Virus record (IMG/VR): IMGVR_UViG_3300034072_001395
Location: 32,571 to 96,570 of that record
DNA from: a virus
Length of the DNA stretch: 64,000 nucleotides
Reading direction: 5' to 3' (one strand)
Part shown: piece by piece, positions 2,931-60,033 of the stretch
Numbering within the stretch: the stretch's first letter is position 1
Layout: each line of letters opens with the position of its first letter
Program-made: the position numbers and the translations under genes
The notes under the pieces: model-generated
Databases searched by the model: none
What the model was told of the DNA's origin: nothing
The model's input: only the letters and a program-made list of their open reading frames with translations

Positions 2931-3326
2931 TCAGTTGTAGTCGCTGGCGTCGGCGGCGTCTCCGCCGGCGTCAGGAGCCCCGTACTCCGCTTCCAGCTCC
3001 AGCGCAAGGCCCTGCATGCGCAGCCGAGCGATCCCAGCGTCGCCGCCCGCCTCGGCGAAGCACGCCTGATAGGCGATCTCCGCGAGCGTGCGGGCGGTCC
3101 CGAATGTCATCGGGCCCTTGTCACGGGCCGTCCGCTTGATGTAGTCGGCCAGCACGTCGCTGTCGTCGAGCAGGGTGGCGCTGGGCGCACTGAACACAGC
3201 GAACACCAGCACCTCCTCGTCGCCGTCGAACCGCTCGCGCCCGATGGGCAGCGCGCAGTCGGCCATCTCGACGGGCACGGGCCCGTCCTTGCGAGTGGCG
3301 CGCTGAAGTCGGACGCGATCGGCCAT
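2931..3326 (-). CDS. Hypothetical protein
   Basis: 131 aa with GGGAG before the ATG at 3326. The N-terminal half is beta-like with an acidic FDGDEEV stretch; the C-terminal half is helical and ends in an Asp/Ala-rich tail. It sits directly downstream of the Acb2/Tad1-like gene (9-base gap). No family is recognised. Confidence 0.65.
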   Translation of the reverse strand: MADRVRLQRATRKDGPVPVEMADCALPIGRERFDGDEEVLVFAVFSAPSATLLDDSDVLADYIKRTARDKGPMTFGTARTLAEIAYQACFAEAGGDAGIARLRMQGLALELEAEYGAPDAGGDAADASDYN

Positions 3327-3335
3327 GACGGCTCC

Positions 3336-3767
3336 CTACTGCGCGTTGACGCCGAGGACACCGCGCGCCTTGCGCTCGGTCCCCCGGCTGCGGATGATGT
3401 CCAGGGCGTCGCGGATGTGCGCCAGCGCGCGGGCGTTGCTCTCGTGCGCGAAGGGGCCGGCCTGGAACGCCTCCAGGCGGTCGACCAGCACGGCGGCCAG
3501 GGCGGCGTCGACGCAGCCGGTGAGCTTGCCGTCGGGGCCGCGGGGGCCGTGCTGGAAGTCCACGGCCGCGACGATCTTGCCGCCGACGTTGACCTCGTAG
3601 TGGTGCGAGGCGCCGCCCGCGGCGGGGTCGCGCTCATCGCAGGTGATCACGAGGTCGGCGGCGCCGAAGGGGTCGATGTGTGCGAGGACCTTGCGCGGGA
3701 GCGGGTAGGGCAGGGAGCCCGTGAAGCCGGGGCAGGATGGGTTCAGGTCGATGATCTCGTCAGACAC
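3336..3767 (-). CDS. Acb2/Tad1 hairpin-like protein, candidate cyclic-nucleotide sponge
   Basis: 143 aa, GTG start at 3767 after GAGGTG. Residues 56-75 are beta-like and end FQHGP. They are followed by a helical hairpin: about 93-103 (VLVDRLEAFQ), then GPFAHESN, then a second helix (ALAHIRDALDII) and the ending ERKARGVLG. As I recall them, phage proteins with an Acb2/Tad1-type hairpin share FQxGP, the DRLxxFQxGPF turn, a helix with xALxHI, and the RGVxG end. Acb2 and Tad1 bind cyclic nucleotides or gcADPR made by CBASS and Thoeris and so block those defences. The family match is a pattern reading; the function is inferred. Confidence 0.6.
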   Translation of the reverse strand: MSDEIIDLNPSCPGFTGSLPYPLPRKVLAHIDPFGAADLVITCDERDPAAGGASHHYEVNVGGKIVAAVDFQHGPRGPDGKLTGCVDAALAAVLVDRLEAFQAGPFAHESNARALAHIRDALDIIRSRGTERKARGVLGVNAQ

Positions 3768-3993
3768 CGGACACCTCGGTGGACGCGGGGGCGTCCTCGG
3801 TCTCGGAGGGCGGCAGCTCGATGATCTCGGGCGCGGCCTCGACGGGCTCGCCGACCTCGGCCTCGACCTCGACGACGGGCGGGGCCTCCTCGACGGTCAG
3901 GATGATGGCGCCGTCGGTGAGCTTGAACACCAGCAGGCCGAGCAGGGTGAGAAGCAGGGCGAAGATGCCGTGCTTGCGGTTCAGAGACGACAT
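3760..3993 (-). CDS. Single-pass membrane protein with acidic tail
   Basis: 77 aa. The ATG at 3993 has only a weak GGGGG upstream. Residues 9-26 form one hydrophobic helix; the rest is strongly acidic and Pro/Glu/Val-rich. An N-in single-pass topology with a long acidic extramembrane tail is likely. It overlaps the Acb2/Tad1-like gene by 8 bases, so the two are co-translated. Function unknown. Confidence 0.65.
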   Translation of the reverse strand: MSSLNRKHGIFALLLTLLGLLVFKLTDGAIILTVEEAPPVVEVEAEVGEPVEAAPEIIELPPSETEDAPASTEVSGV

Positions 3994-3998
3994 GACGG

Positions 3999-4223
3999 TC
4001 AGACCCCCGGGTGGGTGAGCAGGTAGAGCATGAAGTTGAAGGCGACGAAGAAGGCTCCGCCGTCGCGGTCGAAGAACTCGGTCAGGATGCGCCAGTACGT
4101 CTTGGCGTCGAGCGTCCAGGGCGGGAACTCCTGGCGGACGCGGATGAGCGTCAGAGCGCCCACGATCAGGTAGACGCAGCACATCAGGAAGTTCAGCAGC
4201 CAGAGGACCACGGGCGGCTCCAT
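3999..4223 (-). CDS. Small two-helix membrane protein
   Basis: 74 aa with AGGA before the ATG at 4223. Two hydrophobic segments (about 4-26 and 56-70) flank a charged loop. It is the first gene after a consensus promoter at 4234-4262, so this and the downstream small genes can be expressed apart from the primase-helicase. Function unknown. Confidence 0.7.
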   Translation of the reverse strand: MEPPVVLWLLNFLMCCVYLIVGALTLIRVRQEFPPWTLDAKTYWRILTEFFDRDGGAFFVAFNFMLYLLTHPGV

Positions 4224-4233
4224 TGTCCTGCCG

Positions 4234-4262
4234 AGCGTAGCCCGGCGAGGCGCACCTGTCAA
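4234..4262 (-). promoter_or_regulatory. Sigma70-type promoter inside end of primase gene
   Basis: On the minus strand: TTGACA, 17 bases, TACGCT, with the ATG at 4223 about 10 bases past the -10 box. The -35 overlaps the primase-helicase stop codon. Confidence 0.75.
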
Positions 4263-7200
4263 CTCGACCGGATGGCGTCGTCGGGGGCGTCCTTCCGGGC
4301 GACGTACATGCCGTCCGCGTCGTCGCCAGTTGCGGCGGCCCGGCGCTCGCGGTAGTCGTCGTCCTCGACGATCCGCTCCTGCCAGCGGCGGGAGAGCGCG
4401 TCCACCAGCTCCAGGCGGTCGGTGTCGACGTGGTAGACGCGCACGATCGCGCCGTCCAGGCCGCGGGACCGACGGGACTTCAACCGGAGGCCGACGCTGC
4501 GGAGCACCTGGGCGAGATACTGCGCGTGCGAGAGCGTCGGGCCCTCGGGGATCCCGAGCGCGGCCTGCTCGCGCCGGGTGGCCGAGAGGATCTCGGCGAG
4601 CCACTCGAAGGGGATCGCGCGACCATCGAGCAAGTTGCGGCGGGCCAGCTCACGCATCGTGAAGGCCGCGAGGCGAGCCGCGGGCAAGACCGTGCGGTAC
4701 GTCATCGCCGTCTCACCGCGGGAGCGGTTGACCTCGTAGCGGGCCACGGCGTCCCGCTTGCCCGTGCGCAGGAGCGACTGCTGCGCGTAGGCGAGCACCT
4801 GCTTCGGCAGCTTCCCGCGCAGAGCCTCGGAGCAGATGTCGACCTTCTGCTCGAAGTCCGCGGAGGACAGCGCGCCGCCGAACATGTGCAGGTAGCGGGT
4901 GGCCGTGTGCCGGATCTGCTCGTCGCGGGACCGGGGGCCCGACCGGGCGATCCGCGTCATGTCCGCTTCGGGGAGCGGCTCGGCCTCGGCGATCTTCGTG
5001 GCGCGCTCCAAGTGGATCGCCTTGGCGATCTCGCGCACGGCCTCGGCGGCGCCGCTGTCGAGCACGTCCTCGACGTACTCCTCGAAGTTGTGCGTCTCCC
5101 GCAGCTTCGGGAGCGTCCAGCCGCGGCCCGAGAGGTAGCTGGCGGCGATGGAGGCCGCCTGCGCCGAGCCGAGGCGCTGGAGGTTGAGGTCCTGGCGGTA
5201 CTCGGAGAGCAGGTAGGCCGTGGACTTGGCCTCGACGCCGAGCGCCCGGCGGGCCGTCTCCACGTCGCGGAGGAAGTGCTGCTCGATGGCCGTCGGCGAG
5301 AAGCGCCAGGAGTCGGCCGCGGGCGGCTTGCGGCTGGTGCCCGAGATGAACACCCGCGGGTCGTTGGGATGGCGGACGCGGTGGAGCATCTGCTCGACGA
5401 CCGACGCGCTGCCGATGAAGTCGCGCCCGACGAGGACGTGGCGGTGGTCGTACCAGCCCACCCGGTCGAACGAGACGCCGGTGGACATCGCCGTGTTGTA
5501 GACCAGAACGTCGTGGGAGAGCGCGTCCTGGGAGAAGTCCTCGGGGTCCGCCTCGCCGTCGCTGCCGACGATCACGCGCACCGTGCGGCCGGTGCCGGCG
5601 ACCCGCCCCTCCAGCAACTTGCCGATGGCCTGCGCCATCTTGCGCTCGTAGCAGGCGATCGCCACCCGCTTGCCGGCCTCGACCTGCGACACGATCAGCT
5701 CGATGTGCTTGTCGGAGGACGACGGACCCTCGCCGGGCGCGCCATCGTACACCTCGTCCTCCTCGTCGGACGGCGGGGTGCCCAGGTGGACGAAGGGCCA
5801 GCAGTGGCCGATGGTCGTCATCTCGACGAAGTTGCAAGCGCCCTGCGCGAGCGCCGACCGGGCGTGCTCGATGTCGCGGATCAGGTTGAGGGTGCCGAGG
5901 CTCGCGTGCGCGTCGGCCAGGATGATCCGCGAGGCCAGGGAGCAGCAGTAGACCAGCCGGGAGTACGTCTGCTGGGCGTCCTTCGACTTCAACATCGAGT
6001 AGATCTGCGTGAGCATCTGCTCGATCTCGTCGATGAGGATCACGCTGCCGTCGGGCTTCCACTTCTCCGTGACGTTCCGCAGGGCGGCGAAGGACGAGGA
6101 CGTGTCCGCGTCGGCCACCTTGCTCCCCGAGCCAGCGGCCGCGTGGACCAGGTCGAGCCGGGCGGCGAGGTTCTTGGCGAGGGAGACGAAGGGGCTGATC
6201 GCCAGGACGCGCCGACGCTCGGCCCGCGCCTGCTTGACGGCGGCCTCCATCAAGTGCGTCTTGCCGCTGCCGGTGCGGGCCGTCAGGAGCACGAAGTCGG
6301 GCAGGTTCTCGGGGAACTGCGCGTAGCCGCGCTCGTCGAGGGGCAGCTCGACGGACGCGCGCAGGATGCCCTCGCAGTCCTGCATGGACAGCGCGTGGCG
6401 GGGCATCGCCGTGGGCACGATCTCGGACGGCAGCGCGTCGACCGTCGAGGCCACACGCGCGGACAACCGCGGCGACGTGCCCTGCTTGAACCGGGCGTAG
6501 TCGTAGCGGAACACCGTATGGCACTTCCAGCAGGTGAAGTCATCCTTGTCCTCGACGGCCCGCAGCGAGGTGTTGCTGCCGCACGACGGGCAGCCCGTCC
6601 GGTCCTCGGGACGCTCGGCGCGCGGCCAGACCGCGAAGGTCCACGGCACCTTCTCTCGCTCGGCGCGCGGCTTCAGCGTGCGGCCCTCCTTCTTGGCCTT
6701 GCGCTGCTCGGCGCGCAGCGCACGCAGCTCGTCGCGCGACATGCGCGAAGGGGCCGGGAGCCAGTCGCTCTCGTGCTTGATGCGGTCGAACCAGGGGTCG
6801 AACGAGGGCGTGTCGTTGTGGAACAGGTCCGGCCGGTACAGCCGGGCGGTCTTGTCCGAGGCGCGGTGGCCGCCGCCAGGGACCGGGAAGATGCGGGTGC
6901 CGATGTCCTTGGCGCTGGCGTCCCACCACCAGAGCGACTCGCCCTTGAAGTTGTGCCACGCCTTGATCACGTCCTTCATACGGGAAGGCGACCAGGGGGA
7001 CGAGGGGTAGCCCTCGCCATCGGGCATCCAGTAGATCAGGCAGAGGCCGTGGCCGGTGTAGATGATCCGGTTGGGACGGCCGAGTCCCGCCTCGCCGGTG
7101 GCTTCGAGGACGTGCTCGACGAACTGCACGCCGTCCATCCAGGCCAGCACGGCGTCCTCGGACATCGCGTAGAGAGCGGCCTTCCGGGCGCTGCGGTCCT

Positions 7201-8219: not shown

Positions 8220-9041
8220 ATGCCGCCCCGCCGCAAGTCCGTCGCACAGATCACGCACTCCCGTCCGCCGCCGACGCCCGAGGAGATCGCTGCCGCCGAG
8301 CAGGGCGAGGCGTTCGCCCGAGCCTTGTTCCCGAAGGCGAAGGAGCGCGGCCTCAACGTCCAGTTCAGCTCGACGCCCGCGGAGCAGACCCGCAACGGCT
8401 ACATGCGCCTGCCCGGCTTCCAGCGCCCGGCCGTGTGGTCGCCCGAGATGGCGCTCGGCTACGTCCGCAGTGTGCTGTGTGAGCGGAAGTTCCCGGGGCT
8501 GTTCATCGCGCGGGCGCGGTACGCGGACGGCGGGCGCGACGTGCTCGACATCCTCGACGGTCAGCAGCGCATCCTGGCGCTCGGCGGCGTGCTCCAGCGG
8601 GGCTCCGTCGCCGACGTGGCCGCCATGCGCGGTGAGCGGATCGTGGGCGCGGCGCCACACCTAAACCTCCTGGCGAGGTCCGCGGACGACGTGCTCGTGG
8701 CCCGGGGCGCTGACGAGCAGCCGCCACCAGTGTTCGGCGACCCGGAGGAGGGCGCGCTGGACTGCTCGCGCATCCCGGTCGCGTGCATGCGACGGGTCGC
8801 GTACTTCACCCACCGGCGTTTCTCGGACTACATCTGCGAGAACACCGGATGCTCCCGCGAGCAGGGCTTCTCCGTTTCCGCCTGGGCCTACGCCGCCTGC
8901 GGCAACATCTACCTGCCGTTCCTGATCGTCTACCAGAGCGCCAGCTTGCAGGATGTCAAGGACATGTTCCGGTCGATCAACACGCCCGGCGTGCAGATCA
9001 CGGAGGCGGAACTGGAGGCGCTGCTCGCCGCCGACGATTGA
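8220..9041 (+). CDS. DUF262/ParB-like protein (first of two)
   Basis: 273 aa, GGAGG before the ATG. The signature of the ParB/DUF262 fold is clear: GFQRPAVW near residue 65, then LDILDGQQR near residue 114, and an alpha-helical remainder containing FRSIN(T/S)PG near 255. In GmrSD-type nucleases DUF262 binds or hydrolyses nucleotides and partners an HNH domain; here the protein is short and has no HNH part. Its neighbour is a DNA methyltransferase. A second protein of this type lies at 59233. Role unknown: defence, modification-linked or DNA-binding are all possible. Confidence 0.7.
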   Translation: MPPRRKSVAQITHSRPPPTPEEIAAAEQGEAFARALFPKAKERGLNVQFSSTPAEQTRNGYMRLPGFQRPAVWSPEMALGYVRSVLCERKFPGLFIARARYADGGRDVLDILDGQQRILALGGVLQRGSVADVAAMRGERIVGAAPHLNLLARSADDVLVARGADEQPPPVFGDPEEGALDCSRIPVACMRRVAYFTHRRFSDYICENTGCSREQGFSVSAWAYAACGNIYLPFLIVYQSASLQDVKDMFRSINTPGVQITEAELEALLAADD

Positions 9042-54120: not shown

Positions 54121-54149
54121 CATGTACCCAGGTCAGAACAGGGTGTCAA
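54121..54149 (-). promoter_or_regulatory. Consensus sigma70-type promoter
   Basis: Minus strand: TTGACA, 17 bases, TACATG, then TTGAACAGCC. The -35 lies inside the end of the cytosine methylase gene. Confidence 0.75.
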
Positions 54150-55092
54150 GCGCCGCACGACCGAGCGCCGTCGCCAGGGGAGGCGGGACGGCGTTGCCGA
54201 TCTGCGCGTAGACCTGCGCCGACGTGCCAGCGAAGAAGAGCCCGGGGTGGAAGCCCTGGAGGATGGCGCACTCGGCCACGGTCAGGCGCCGGCGCCCGAC
54301 GGCCAGGAAGGCTGCGTCGGAGGCGCGATCGGGACCGCCGTTGAACGTCCAGCCCGACCGCTCCGAGGCCCGGGTGCCCTTGACCTCCGTGGTCATCACG
54401 GTGGGCGCCGGGCGGTCCAGGCGCCCAGGCTCGCTGCCGGCGCGTCCGGTGCCGACGGGGTAGACGACCTCGTCGCAGTGGGGACAGCGGTTGCGCGGCC
54501 CCGACGTGCAGCGCGCCAGGGAGGATAGGGCCTCGCGCATGGTGGGCGCCGGCGTCTCCCTCGCGTGAACCGTGGCGACGAAGGCCGCCAGGGCCTCGGC
54601 GCTGGCGTGCGCCGCGAGGATGATCCGCCAGCGCGTCTGTGCGACGCCGAAGGCACTGGCGTTCACCGCGATGACCTCGACGGCGTAGCCGAGGGCCTCG
54701 ACGGCTGGCTTCCACTCGCGCAGCGCCACGTCCTCGGCGGCGTACACGTTCTCGACCAGAACGGCTCGCGGGCGCGTGTGCGCGATGGCGGCGAGCGTCG
54801 CGGGCCAGCCGTCGAACGCCTCGTGGCGTCGGCGGCTGTTGGCCCTGCTGTGCAGTTGGCACGGCGGCGACGCCCACAGGAGGCCCGTCGGGATGCGCGG
54901 CAGGGCCTCGATGACACCGGGCGCCTCGATGTCCTCCTGGCGCACGACGCCCTCGTAGCCGAGGAAGCACCGCAGCGTGTCGCACGCCACCGGGTCGCGC
55001 TCGACGGCGGCGAGGTGCTTGAAGCCGGCGACGTGGAGCCCCCGAGAGGCTCCGCCGCCGCCGGCGAACAGGTCGATCAAGTAGGGCTTCAT
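54133..55092 (-). CDS. dcm: DNA cytosine-5 methyltransferase
   Basis: 319 aa, AGGAGGG before the ATG at 55092. DLFAGGGGAS (motif I, 7-16), SPPCQ (75-79; catalytic Cys78), VLVENV (motif VI), QTRWR (motif VIII) and QIGNAVPP (motif X). A ZnF-like CPHCDE sits between VIII and IX. Methylates cytosine C5; phage orphan of this type usually protects from restriction. Directly downstream of RNR. Confidence 0.9.
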   Translation of the reverse strand: MKPYLIDLFAGGGGASRGLHVAGFKHLAAVERDPVACDTLRCFLGYEGVVRQEDIEAPGVIEALPRIPTGLLWASPPCQLHSRANSRRRHEAFDGWPATLAAIAHTRPRAVLVENVYAAEDVALREWKPAVEALGYAVEVIAVNASAFGVAQTRWRIILAAHASAEALAAFVATVHARETPAPTMREALSSLARCTSGPRNRCPHCDEVVYPVGTGRAGSEPGRLDRPAPTVMTTEVKGTRASERSGWTFNGGPDRASDAAFLAVGRRRLTVAECAILQGFHPGLFFAGTSAQVYAQIGNAVPPPLATALGRAALDTLF

Positions 55093-55108
55093 CGAGCGCC
55101 CTCCTGGG

Positions 55109-57595
55109 TCAGACGATCGCGCAGGCTCCGCCGGCGCAGGCGAACGTGCCGTGCCCCTCGGAGATGCCCGTCTCGTACTGCGCCAGCATCGACCAGTCAA
55201 CGTCCGGCAGCTCCGCCGCCAGCTCGTTGTACCGGGCCTCGTCGATCTCCTCGTAGGGCGCGCCGTAGTAGACGTGATCGTCGTAGGGGAAGAAGGACAG
55301 GCCGCCGGCGTTCTCGATGTTCTGGAACACCCACTCGCCGACCTCCGCCCACTCGCTCTCGCGGACGTTGATCGTGGCCGACTGGTTGTGGCCCTTGTAG
55401 GCCAGCCAGGAACGGTTCAAGAGCGAGATGCGCTCCAGGGTGTCCAGGGCCGTCTCGTCCTTCCGGCACAGCGACCCCTCGGGCGCCTTCATCGGCAGCT
55501 CGAAGGTCCAGCCCGTGACATCCTCCTCGGGGAGGCCGACCTCGGCCTGGCGGGTCGGGATGCACCGGACACCGTGCGCGCGGAGGACGGCGCAGACGGG
55601 CGACTGCGAGGACACCTGCACGCGCCGGATGTAGTAGGGCGCGTGGTGCGCGTGGACGCCCGACGCGGTGCCGAGGAACACCGACGAGTTGCCGTCGGGC
55701 TTGCCGCAGGTGATCCCCGCGGCCGGTGCGATGCCGAAGATGCGCGCCCACCGGGCGTTGACGTTGTCCGCCGTGAAGCCCAGGATCGCCAGGACTTCCT
55801 CGTTCTGCGCGACCTGCGGGCACTCGACCTGGTTGGAGAGCCCGACGCCGAGCAGGGCATCCTCGCGGGTCAGCCGGATGGTGCCCTCACGGAGCAGCGG
55901 GAAGTTGGTGAGGCACGCCTGCATGGTGCCGATGAAGGTGGCGAGGTTGACCTTGCGAAAGGCCGTGTCCTCGTCATCGGAGGGGCGGAGAACCACGCTG
56001 GTGAGATTGCATACTTGCCCGCCGCCACCATCCCAGGTGCCGTTCGCCAGCTCGGAGGCGAGGCCGATCTCCACGCAGTTGTGGACGTAGAAGCCGTTGG
56101 CGTCGAAGGCGTGGACGCCCGGGATCGTGCAGTCGTAGACGGGCTCCTCGCCGTCAGGCACCAGGGCGCTGAACGTGGTGAGGCGCGGCCGGTCGGCGCG
56201 GAGGCTCATGCGCAGCTTGTCGCCCGCGCGAAGGTCGCCGGCCTCGACCTCCTCGTACTCGCCCGGCTTGCCCGTCGCGCGGAACATGACGTGGTTCGCC
56301 GTGAGGCGCACGCAGAAGCCCTCGACCGTCTCCAGGCGGAACACCGGCGCGAGGGCGTGCGTCTGCCAGAAGCCCCCAGCGGTCGAAGGATGCACCTGCT
56401 CATCCACGACGGCGGTGAACTGGCGGCCGATGAGGTGCTTGACCGGGAGCCCCACGAAGGTGCCGTGCGTGCCGTCGAACACGCGCACGATCGTGTCGCC
56501 CGTGACGCAGGGGTTCGCGCGGATCAGCCGCCCACGGTAGTCGAAGCGCGCCGGGCTGAAGATGCCCCGCTCGCCGGCACCGGAACGATGCAGGATGTCC
56601 CACTCCGCCATGAACTGCTCCCTCGTCAGGCCCGTCTTGACGACCCACGAGTTGTTGGCCTGGGAGAACTCCTCGGGCACGTCACCGTTCGGGTAGAACT
56701 TCGCCCAGCGCAGCTTGTCGTCGTCGCGGTCGCTGAACGAGATCATCGCCGAGCGGCGCACGCCGCCCACCTGCACGATGCTGCCGGCCGTGCAGAGCAG
56801 GGTGTGGCACTCCAGCGTGGTGAGCCGCCGACCCTCCCGCCCAGCCCGCTGGATGGTCGTGCGCAGGGCGTCGAGGTACTTGCGCAGGGGCTCGGGGCCG
56901 CTGGCCTCACCGCCCTTGGTGAGCAGCTTCGCGCCCTTCGGCCGGATCTGCGAGTAGTCGAAGGTCACGTTGGCGCCCGAGTACCACGCCGCCACGCCGT
57001 CGTAGACGGCGCGCATCCAGCCCTCGGTGCTGTCCTCGATGACGTGCGTGGACGAGGACAGGTCCTCGGAGGACGGAGGCGCCGGGATCGGCATGGCGTC
57101 GACGAACTCGCTCTCGACGGAGAAGCCGACGCCGGTGCCGTGCATGAGGATGTAGAGGGCCTCGGCGAACACCACCGGGGTGTCGCACACGGAGAAGTAG
57201 CAGTTGTAGGCCGCGATGTCCGAGCGGTCGAGCACGTCGCCGGCCGCCCACAGGGCGCGCATCGAGGGCATGACGTGGCGCAGGAACACGGCCTCCGTCG
57301 CCATCGCGTGCTGGATGTCGAAGGCGACGCGATGGAGGGCCGCGCGCCCGCCGGTCGCCGTCTCGTTGATCTGCTTGTGCATCCGGTAGCGCATGTAGGC
57401 GCTCCACCGGATGACCGTCTCGCGCCACGTCTCGCGGTGACCGTCGTGCTTCACCTTCGCGTAGGTGCGAAGCCGGACGATCTCGGACGCGAGGCGCGCA
57501 CCAGGGGTCAGGCCCTCCAGCGCGTCGTTGTCGTTGTGCGAGGCGAGGACCTTCGAGGCCCACTCGACGTGGGCCTCTCTCTGCTGGTGCCACAT
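55109..57595 (-). CDS. nrdJ: Class II (B12-dependent) ribonucleotide reductase with intein
   Basis: 828 aa, GGAG before the ATG at 57595. After splicing about 684 residues, close to Lactobacillus-type monomeric RTPR. NCYFSVCD (131-138) and VCNLTS hold the reactive Cys pair; the NP-C-EI radical-site motif is split by an intein (see 56078-56509); the C-terminus CAGGAC is the CxxxxC relay. It reduces ribonucleoside (tri)phosphates using adenosylcobalamin, independent of oxygen. First in a coupled set with three small genes upstream. Confidence 0.92.
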   Translation of the reverse strand: MWHQQREAHVEWASKVLASHNDNDALEGLTPGARLASEIVRLRTYAKVKHDGHRETWRETVIRWSAYMRYRMHKQINETATGGRAALHRVAFDIQHAMATEAVFLRHVMPSMRALWAAGDVLDRSDIAAYNCYFSVCDTPVVFAEALYILMHGTGVGFSVESEFVDAMPIPAPPSSEDLSSSTHVIEDSTEGWMRAVYDGVAAWYSGANVTFDYSQIRPKGAKLLTKGGEASGPEPLRKYLDALRTTIQRAGREGRRLTTLECHTLLCTAGSIVQVGGVRRSAMISFSDRDDDKLRWAKFYPNGDVPEEFSQANNSWVVKTGLTREQFMAEWDILHRSGAGERGIFSPARFDYRGRLIRANPCVTGDTIVRVFDGTHGTFVGLPVKHLIGRQFTAVVDEQVHPSTAGGFWQTHALAPVFRLETVEGFCVRLTANHVMFRATGKPGEYEEVEAGDLRAGDKLRMSLRADRPRLTTFSALVPDGEEPVYDCTIPGVHAFDANGFYVHNCVEIGLASELANGTWDGGGGQVCNLTSVVLRPSDDEDTAFRKVNLATFIGTMQACLTNFPLLREGTIRLTREDALLGVGLSNQVECPQVAQNEEVLAILGFTADNVNARWARIFGIAPAAGITCGKPDGNSSVFLGTASGVHAHHAPYYIRRVQVSSQSPVCAVLRAHGVRCIPTRQAEVGLPEEDVTGWTFELPMKAPEGSLCRKDETALDTLERISLLNRSWLAYKGHNQSATINVRESEWAEVGEWVFQNIENAGGLSFFPYDDHVYYGAPYEEIDEARYNELAAELPDVDWSMLAQYETGISEGHGTFACAGGACAIV
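56078..56509 (-). other. Mini-intein in RNR at the catalytic cysteine
   Basis: Residues 363-506 of the RNR (144 aa). Starts with Cys (CVTGDTIV), has the block B TANH (432-435) and ends GFYVHN before extein Cys507. No LAGLIDADG or HNH endonuclease. The insertion falls between NP and C in the NPC-EI motif, so the first extein residue is the radical cysteine itself. Confidence 0.9.
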
Positions 57596-57628
57596 GGGCG
57601 ATCTCCGTGGTGGGTCTGTAGCGGCCGG

Positions 57629-59194: not shown

Positions 59195-59232
59195 CCTCGC
59201 CCCCGCTCACAGTGACGCAAGGAGAACACCCG

Positions 59233-60033
59233 ATGAAGCTCACCGCCGAACAGCTCAATGACATCGCCGCATGCGGCGACCGCGTGAACGTCTCCAACAA
59301 GGACAGAGGACCACCCATCGCCCAGCGTGGCGGCGCTCGTGTGGAGTTCCATGCGGCTCTGCCCGACGGCGGCGCCGTCCTGAGTCTGCTCGACGAGACG
59401 CTCGGCGCTCCTGACACCTGGCGTGATGCCGCCTGCGCTTCCTGGGCGGAGGCCGTCGAGGCTGCGCGTGCGTGCCTTGCCACCGGACGGACCTGCGCCT
59501 ACGGACCCGGCATCGGGCTCCACGCCATGCTTCCGCAGTCCGCGCAGTCTCCGGTCCACGAGTCCTGGGAGACGATCGCACACGCCGTCGATGGCGCCGG
59601 CGACAGCACCGATCCGCTCAACCTCGACGCCGACTACCAGCGGCCGCGAGCGTGGACGGAGGCGCAGCAGAGCGCCTTCGTCGGCTGGGCGATGACCGGC
59701 GGCGAGGTCCCCGTGGTCTACTGCCGGCGCATCGCGTGGGACCAGCCCACCGAAGTCGTCGACGGGAAGCAGCGGATCATCGCCATCCACGCCTTCGTGC
59801 GCGGCAAGATCCCCGCCACGTTCACGCACAACGGGCGCGAGCGCACCGTCTGGTGGCGCGACCTCGATGAGATCGACCGCCGCAGCATGTCGCTGGACCT
59901 GCGCGTGAGCTACAACAACTGGACGCGGAAGCAGGCGCTCGACTTCTACATCCGCCTCAACAGCGCCGGCACGCCCCACGCCCCCGAGGAGATCGACCGC
60001 GTGCGCCGCCTCCTCTTCGCCGAGCAGGAGTAG
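59233..60033 (+). CDS. DUF262/ParB-like protein (second of two)
   Basis: 266 aa, GGAG before the ATG. NLDADYQRPRAWT near 133 and VVDGKQRIIAIHAFV near 175 match the YQRxxxW and DGxQR signature; then FYIRLNSAGTPH. The N-terminal 120 residues are an added region not seen in the protein at 8220. No HNH domain. The two proteins are of near-equal length and stand first or second in their operons, each behind the same type of control region. Confidence 0.7.
   Translation: MKLTAEQLNDIAACGDRVNVSNKDRGPPIAQRGGARVEFHAALPDGGAVLSLLDETLGAPDTWRDAACASWAEAVEAARACLATGRTCAYGPGIGLHAMLPQSAQSPVHESWETIAHAVDGAGDSTDPLNLDADYQRPRAWTEAQQSAFVGWAMTGGEVPVVYCRRIAWDQPTEVVDGKQRIIAIHAFVRGKIPATFTHNGRERTVWWRDLDEIDRRSMSLDLRVSYNNWTRKQALDFYIRLNSAGTPHAPEEIDRVRRLLFAEQE

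Follow-up and report, generated by a model that had tools for sequence, protein, structure and literature searches.

A mini-intein, probably stripped of its homing endonuclease, interrupts a phage class II ribonucleotide reductase at its radical cysteine

The phage gene described here encodes a class II ribonucleotide reductase (RNR) that is interrupted, just before its radical cysteine, by an insert of 144 residues. From its sequence and predicted structure, we hold it very probable that this insert, which occupies the NP/C site (the slash marks the point of insertion), is a class 1 mini-intein able to splice, and that it derives from a homing intein of that site which has lost its LAGLIDADG endonuclease. 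The window, i.e. the whole stretch of DNA analysed, is 64,000 bases long and corresponds to bases 32571-96570 of an IMG/VR virus record of 96,570 bases (96.6 kb). The features on which the argument relies are as follows.

57603..57606 (-): likely Shine-Dalgarno sequence GGAG, 7 bases 5' of the ATG, read from the sequence
55109..57595 (-): open reading frame of the unspliced precursor, 828 aa with the intein; divergent class II (AdoCbl) ribonucleoside-triphosphate reductase by profile matches
56510..57595 (-): N-extein, residues 1-362, ending ...RANP, by alignment with L002 and L003, which are intein-free here
57200..57202 (-): Cys132, equivalent of Cys119 (redox pair) of ribonucleoside-triphosphate reductase (RTPR), by alignment
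56078..56509 (-): 144-aa mini-intein (residues 363-506) that lacks an endonuclease domain, by profiles, alignment, AlphaFold2 and Foldseek
56507..56509 (-): intein Cys1 (residue 363), predicted first nucleophile, invariant in 46 relatives
56291..56302 (-): block B TxxH, here TANH (residues 432-435), whose T and H do not vary across 46 relatives
56183..56188 (-): likely scar left by the lost endonuclease, at the junction that follows intein residue 108, where endonuclease-bearing relatives have up to about 310 extra alignment columns
56078..56140 (-): blocks F and G, VYDCTIPGVHAFDANGFYVHN, including the penultimate His505 and Asn506, TIGR01443 over its cut-off
55109..56077 (-): C-extein, residues 507-828, starting CVEIGLA, by alignment
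56075..56077 (-): Cys507, predicted +1 splicing nucleophile and, after splicing, thiyl-radical cysteine (RTPR Cys408), by alignment
56009..56011 (-): Cys529, equivalent of RTPR Cys419 (redox pair), by alignment
55121..55138 (-): C-terminal CAGGAC (Cys820, Cys825), equivalent of the RTPR C-terminal reducing cysteine pair, aligned with the 1l1l C-terminus

The insert and its predicted fold

An earlier note on this DNA had proposed a mini-intein at 56078-56509, and these limits proved exact. The interval holds 144 stop-free codons on the minus strand, from Cys363 to Asn506, and the precursor reads ...RLIRA-NP/CVTGDT...TANH...YDCTIPGVHAFDANGFYVHN/C-VEIGLA, with Cys1, the TxxH block and the HN ending all in place. 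The possibility that residues 363-506 are a conserved part of intein-free reductases falls away, as the stretch is absent from L002 and L004, which are intein-free and in which RANPCVEIGLA is continuous, and from 36 of the 41 viral relatives that we found with the extein alignment.

Profile searches agree with this assignment. The insert exceeds the cut-off of TIGR01443 (intein_Cterm), matches the NpuDnaB intein (4o1r) by phmmer with an E-value of 3e-7, and scores 33.2 bits (E 5e-8) against Pfam Intein_splicing, 2.6 bits short of the cut-off of 35.8. Across 46 inteins from the same site the invariant columns include C1, T70, H73, D126, N138, G139, H143 and N144, all of which the window intein keeps. 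The AlphaFold2 model of the intein is all-beta with a mean pLDDT of 96.2, and its best solved matches in Foldseek are inteins, with 4o1r at a TM-score of 0.81 (E 1.5e-9). On its motifs, its modelled HINT fold and its absence from homologues with joined flanks, the insert is assigned to the class 1 inteins of the HINT superfamily, and these same lines of evidence show a real intein that is almost surely active. It seems extremely unlikely that we are looking at a degraded, non-splicing intein in a dead reductase gene: the Pfam score just under its cut-off would fit such decay, yet the 828-codon frame is open and preceded by a ribosome-binding site, the catalytic residues of both intein and reductase are all intact, and the HINT model is of high confidence.

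The calculated masses are 91.3 kDa for the precursor, 15.8 kDa for the intein and 75.5 kDa for the spliced reductase, the last slightly above the 74 kDa or so given in the earlier note. Three cysteines lie within the intein (Cys1, Cys66 and Cys127). Its GC3 of 0.958 stands beside 0.959 and 0.941 for the exteins; we therefore rejected a recent arrival from a source that differs in base composition, since intein and exteins are alike in this measure.

The host reductase and its radical cysteine

The 828-aa frame matches TIGR02505 (RTPR) in three stretches with an E-value of 3e-56 and 191 bits, under the equivalog cut-off of 340, which the intein-free relative L002 also misses (160 bits), and it matches Pfam RNR_Alpha just over the cut-off. 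Considering that intein-free viral relatives align with it at 55-59% identity in the set of 41 (59-61% in a three-way alignment with L002 and L003), the reductase is placed by sequence in a divergent phage branch of the monomeric class II reductases (RTPR, NrdJm). The catalytic cysteines expected of an RTPR are all present, with Cys132, Cys507, Cys529 and Cys820/825 aligned to Cys119, Cys408, Cys419 and the C-terminal pair.

The assignment of the radical cysteine runs through L005, a homologue with an intein at the same site. With this intein removed, L005 aligns with the Lactobacillus RTPR 1l1l such that the cysteine of GTNPCGEI falls on Cys408, that of GEPCNL on Cys419, and VNCW at Cys119; the NPC of L005 in turn falls on that of the window protein. 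Cys408 of RTPR is established as the carrier of the thiyl radical, and by way of this bridge the radical cysteine of the mature protein would be Cys507, the +1 residue. The claim that the radical cysteine doubles as the +1 nucleophile thus stands for Cys507, but not for the NPC that is visible in the precursor, which uses the intein's own Cys1 (residue 363). The alignment thus puts the intein of this class II RNR immediately in front of the radical cysteine. Reductase activity should therefore need splicing, as had been proposed; a search of the record for another RNR copy found none. Inteins close to active-site residues are common; indeed, native insertion sites lie on average 8.3 Å from active-site residues, against 21.1 Å for other Cys/Ser/Thr sites (PMC3359363).

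How might this protein be activated? From the conserved residues we infer a class 1 mechanism, in which Cys363 would attack the Pro362 carbonyl after translation (N-S shift), the N-extein would pass to Cys507 by transesterification, Asn506 would cyclise with the aid of His505, and an S-N shift would yield ...ANPCVEIGL.... The native NPCxE loop around the radical cysteine would then arise only on splicing, with the reductase inactive at birth and active thereafter. Many inteins tolerate proline at -1 badly, and the Methanothermobacter RIR1 intein (Mth RIR1), with its native Pro-1, reportedly spliced poorly in E. coli; by analogy, splicing of the window intein could be slow or context-dependent. 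If it does occur, the window would add another small intein with proline as its natural upstream neighbour in splicing.

Occupied and empty sites, and the origin of the short form

A profile built from six same-site inteins recovered 20 viral and 80 cellular loci, and at nearly all of these roughly 100 loci the intein sits at the NP/C of an RNR (NP/C...HN/C), in hosts that include phages, Pseudomonadota, Bacillota, Chloroflexota, archaea and others. NP/C is thus a common RNR intein site. With its insertion between NP and the radical cysteine, and a splicing domain homologous to the other inteins there (33-48% identity to the splicing domains of 45 same-site members), the window intein is an allele of the RIR1 NP/C site.

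Most inteins at this site are 340-400 aa long; a simple pattern picks out a DADG motif in roughly half, and 87 of the 101 distinct ones in our (biased) collection reach at least 301 aa. The profile scans required the C-terminal motif NG[FI][YT]VHNC or similar, so the counts with and without an endonuclease are no census and do not represent population frequencies. Shorter forms do exist. In the order to which L062 (a Methanobacteriaceae archaeon) belongs, 150 genomes were searched; seven carry inteins of 133-137 aa and five carry inteins of 211-231 aa, all at ATNP/C...VHN/CGEQPLL, the identical site. The novelty implied by the earlier note is therefore not upheld: given these Methanobacteriales forms and the literature on the Methanothermobacter RNR intein (Mth RIR1), a class II RNR with a mini-intein at its radical cysteine was on record before, from a methane-making archaeon, and the window intein adds a phage case to this small endonuclease-free set.

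Mth RIR1 (MTH652) is indeed the closest named counterpart, likewise in a class II RNR at the identical insertion point (NP/C...HN/C-x-E), without an endonuclease and of similar size. It lies, however, on an archaeal chromosome rather than in a phage, and its C-extein starts CGEQPLLP rather than CVEIGLA. Mth RIR1 is 134 aa long; two inteins of that length, L118 and L119, come from the order of L062, and by length, order and the published sequence L118 is probably Mth RIR1 itself. A near neighbour is presumably the NrdJ-1 split intein (GOS metagenome), in a phage-like class II RNR at nearly the same motif; it is split, and its site would be NPC/SEI, one residue downstream. A second viral mini-intein, L010 (136 aa, endonuclease-less, at 3185-5833 of a 105-kb contig), shares the NP/C site, but its host is a NrdJ_Z-type B12-dependent RNR rather than an RTPR, and identity between the two inteins is no more than 45%. 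In the two Methanothermobacter species, no protein other than the AdoCbl RNR contains an intein (PMC3087415), and Mth RIR1, called a mini-intein, is used in expression vectors (PMC9033041).

The long forms (L005, L007, L036 and some 85 others) share the site and blocks A, B, F and G with the window intein, and differ from it in an extra endonuclease block of roughly 160-260 aa. After residue 108 the window intein skips 313 alignment columns that are filled by the endonuclease in these long forms, and its identity to endonuclease-bearing splicing domains reaches about 48-49%. The intein has no endonuclease domain, as had been noted, and LAGLIDADG_3 and HNH had no match anywhere in the 96.6-kb record, intein included, in a search that covered these two families. 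A second or trans-acting endonuclease of either family was set aside on the same result.

In a tree of the inteins (133 columns) the window intein falls in no starred set and has no supported neighbours; by the starred branches, a switch between the mini and the long form must have happened two or more times. Taken together, the gap, the identity to endonuclease-bearing forms and these changes make the loss of the endonuclease from a same-site homing intein the likeliest origin, and the sequences suggest that this loss was probably separate from that in Methanobacteriales. Could the insert rather be an ancestral mini-intein that never held an endonuclease? Endonuclease-less forms also occur in L010 and in Methanobacteriales, and the AU test does not reject a tree in which all minis group together (p 0.11). 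Considering the at least two mini/long changes, the predominance of long forms in our biased collection and the existence of 211-231-aa intermediates, we judge this decidedly unlikely, and retain endonuclease loss as our reading.

Among the 41 viral relatives, five carry an insert of about 350-365 aa at NP/C, and the 36 with an empty site include the ten closest (55-59% identity). With these ten lacking an intein, the site is polymorphic among viral reductases, which present it in three states: empty, with a homing intein, and with a mini-intein. Such a set is handy for asking whether regulation or plain decay follows the loss of an endonuclease. Our searches for closer kin were negative: no very near relative of the window gene was found for a test of purifying selection, annotated phage records gave nothing closer to the intein than a Planktothrix phage DnaB intein at 27%, and a single-sequence search of viral contigs for intein relatives returned one locus, L009, which is a different intein.

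The other two catalytic cysteines are also invaded in some viral relatives: L149/L003, L157 and L161 have an insertion at the Cys119 site, as do L003 and L007 at the Cys419 site. L003 (1552-5739, on the same contig as L149) is a close relative with two long inteins, before the Cys119 and Cys419 equivalents, and none at the radical cysteine. In L007 (1162-6600), one viral RTPR frame of 1812 aa contains no fewer than three inteins, located before the cysteine of a CVVAGGVRR motif, at NP/C and at the Cys419 site; the first of these shares the ending HAFDANGFYVHN with the window intein. Across the viral RTPRs of L157, L161, L162, L164, L165, L166 and L168, each of the three catalytic cysteines is the +1 residue of an intein in at least one phage. 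Different intein lineages seem to be present at NP/C in viral RTPRs, some ending in HAFDANGFYVHN and others in THSFIANGLVVHN.

Regulation or simple inheritance

From the missing endonuclease, the earlier note had concluded that the intein must be fixed or conditional. This does not follow. Inteins commonly end their life cycle by losing the endonuclease, and such a loss implies no regulation; vertical persistence suffices to explain an endonuclease-less intein, since only an exact deletion restores the enzyme, and the site is empty in the closest relatives. We posit that the window intein would now be inherited vertically, and kept because its loss requires such a deletion.

One could nonetheless suppose that the intein is retained because slow or conditional splicing delays or gates the activation of the reductase, perhaps through Pro-1, through redox chemistry at Cys1, Cys66 or Cys127, or through phage timing. 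The strict dependence of activity on splicing that the insertion predicts, the three intein cysteines, the persistence of endonuclease-less same-site inteins in several Methanobacteriales genomes and in the viral L010, and the existence of redox-sensitive inteins (PMC4031507) are all in keeping with such a switch. On the other hand, no sequence feature here indicates conditionality, none of the ten closest viral reductases has an intein, and most relatives are plain homing inteins, for which protection from deletion accounts for a position in the active site; we therefore consider a conditional switch unlikely. Its more specific version, in which the endonuclease-less intein is kept as a timer or redox gate and a slow Pro-Cys junction defers activation to a given stage of infection, strikes us as very unlikely, though it would place deoxynucleotide synthesis under splicing control.

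The genes around the reductase (dUTPase, cytosine methylase, thymidylate synthase, DNA polymerase and primase/helicase) are consistent with a phage that makes its own nucleotides. The C-5 cytosine DNA methylase (window 54133-55200, minus strand) lies directly downstream of the reductase gene, and its longest frame overlaps the 3' end of the latter. Elsewhere in the record, a GmrSD_N domain is found in two ORFs, at window 8220-9041 and 59212-60033, both on the plus strand.
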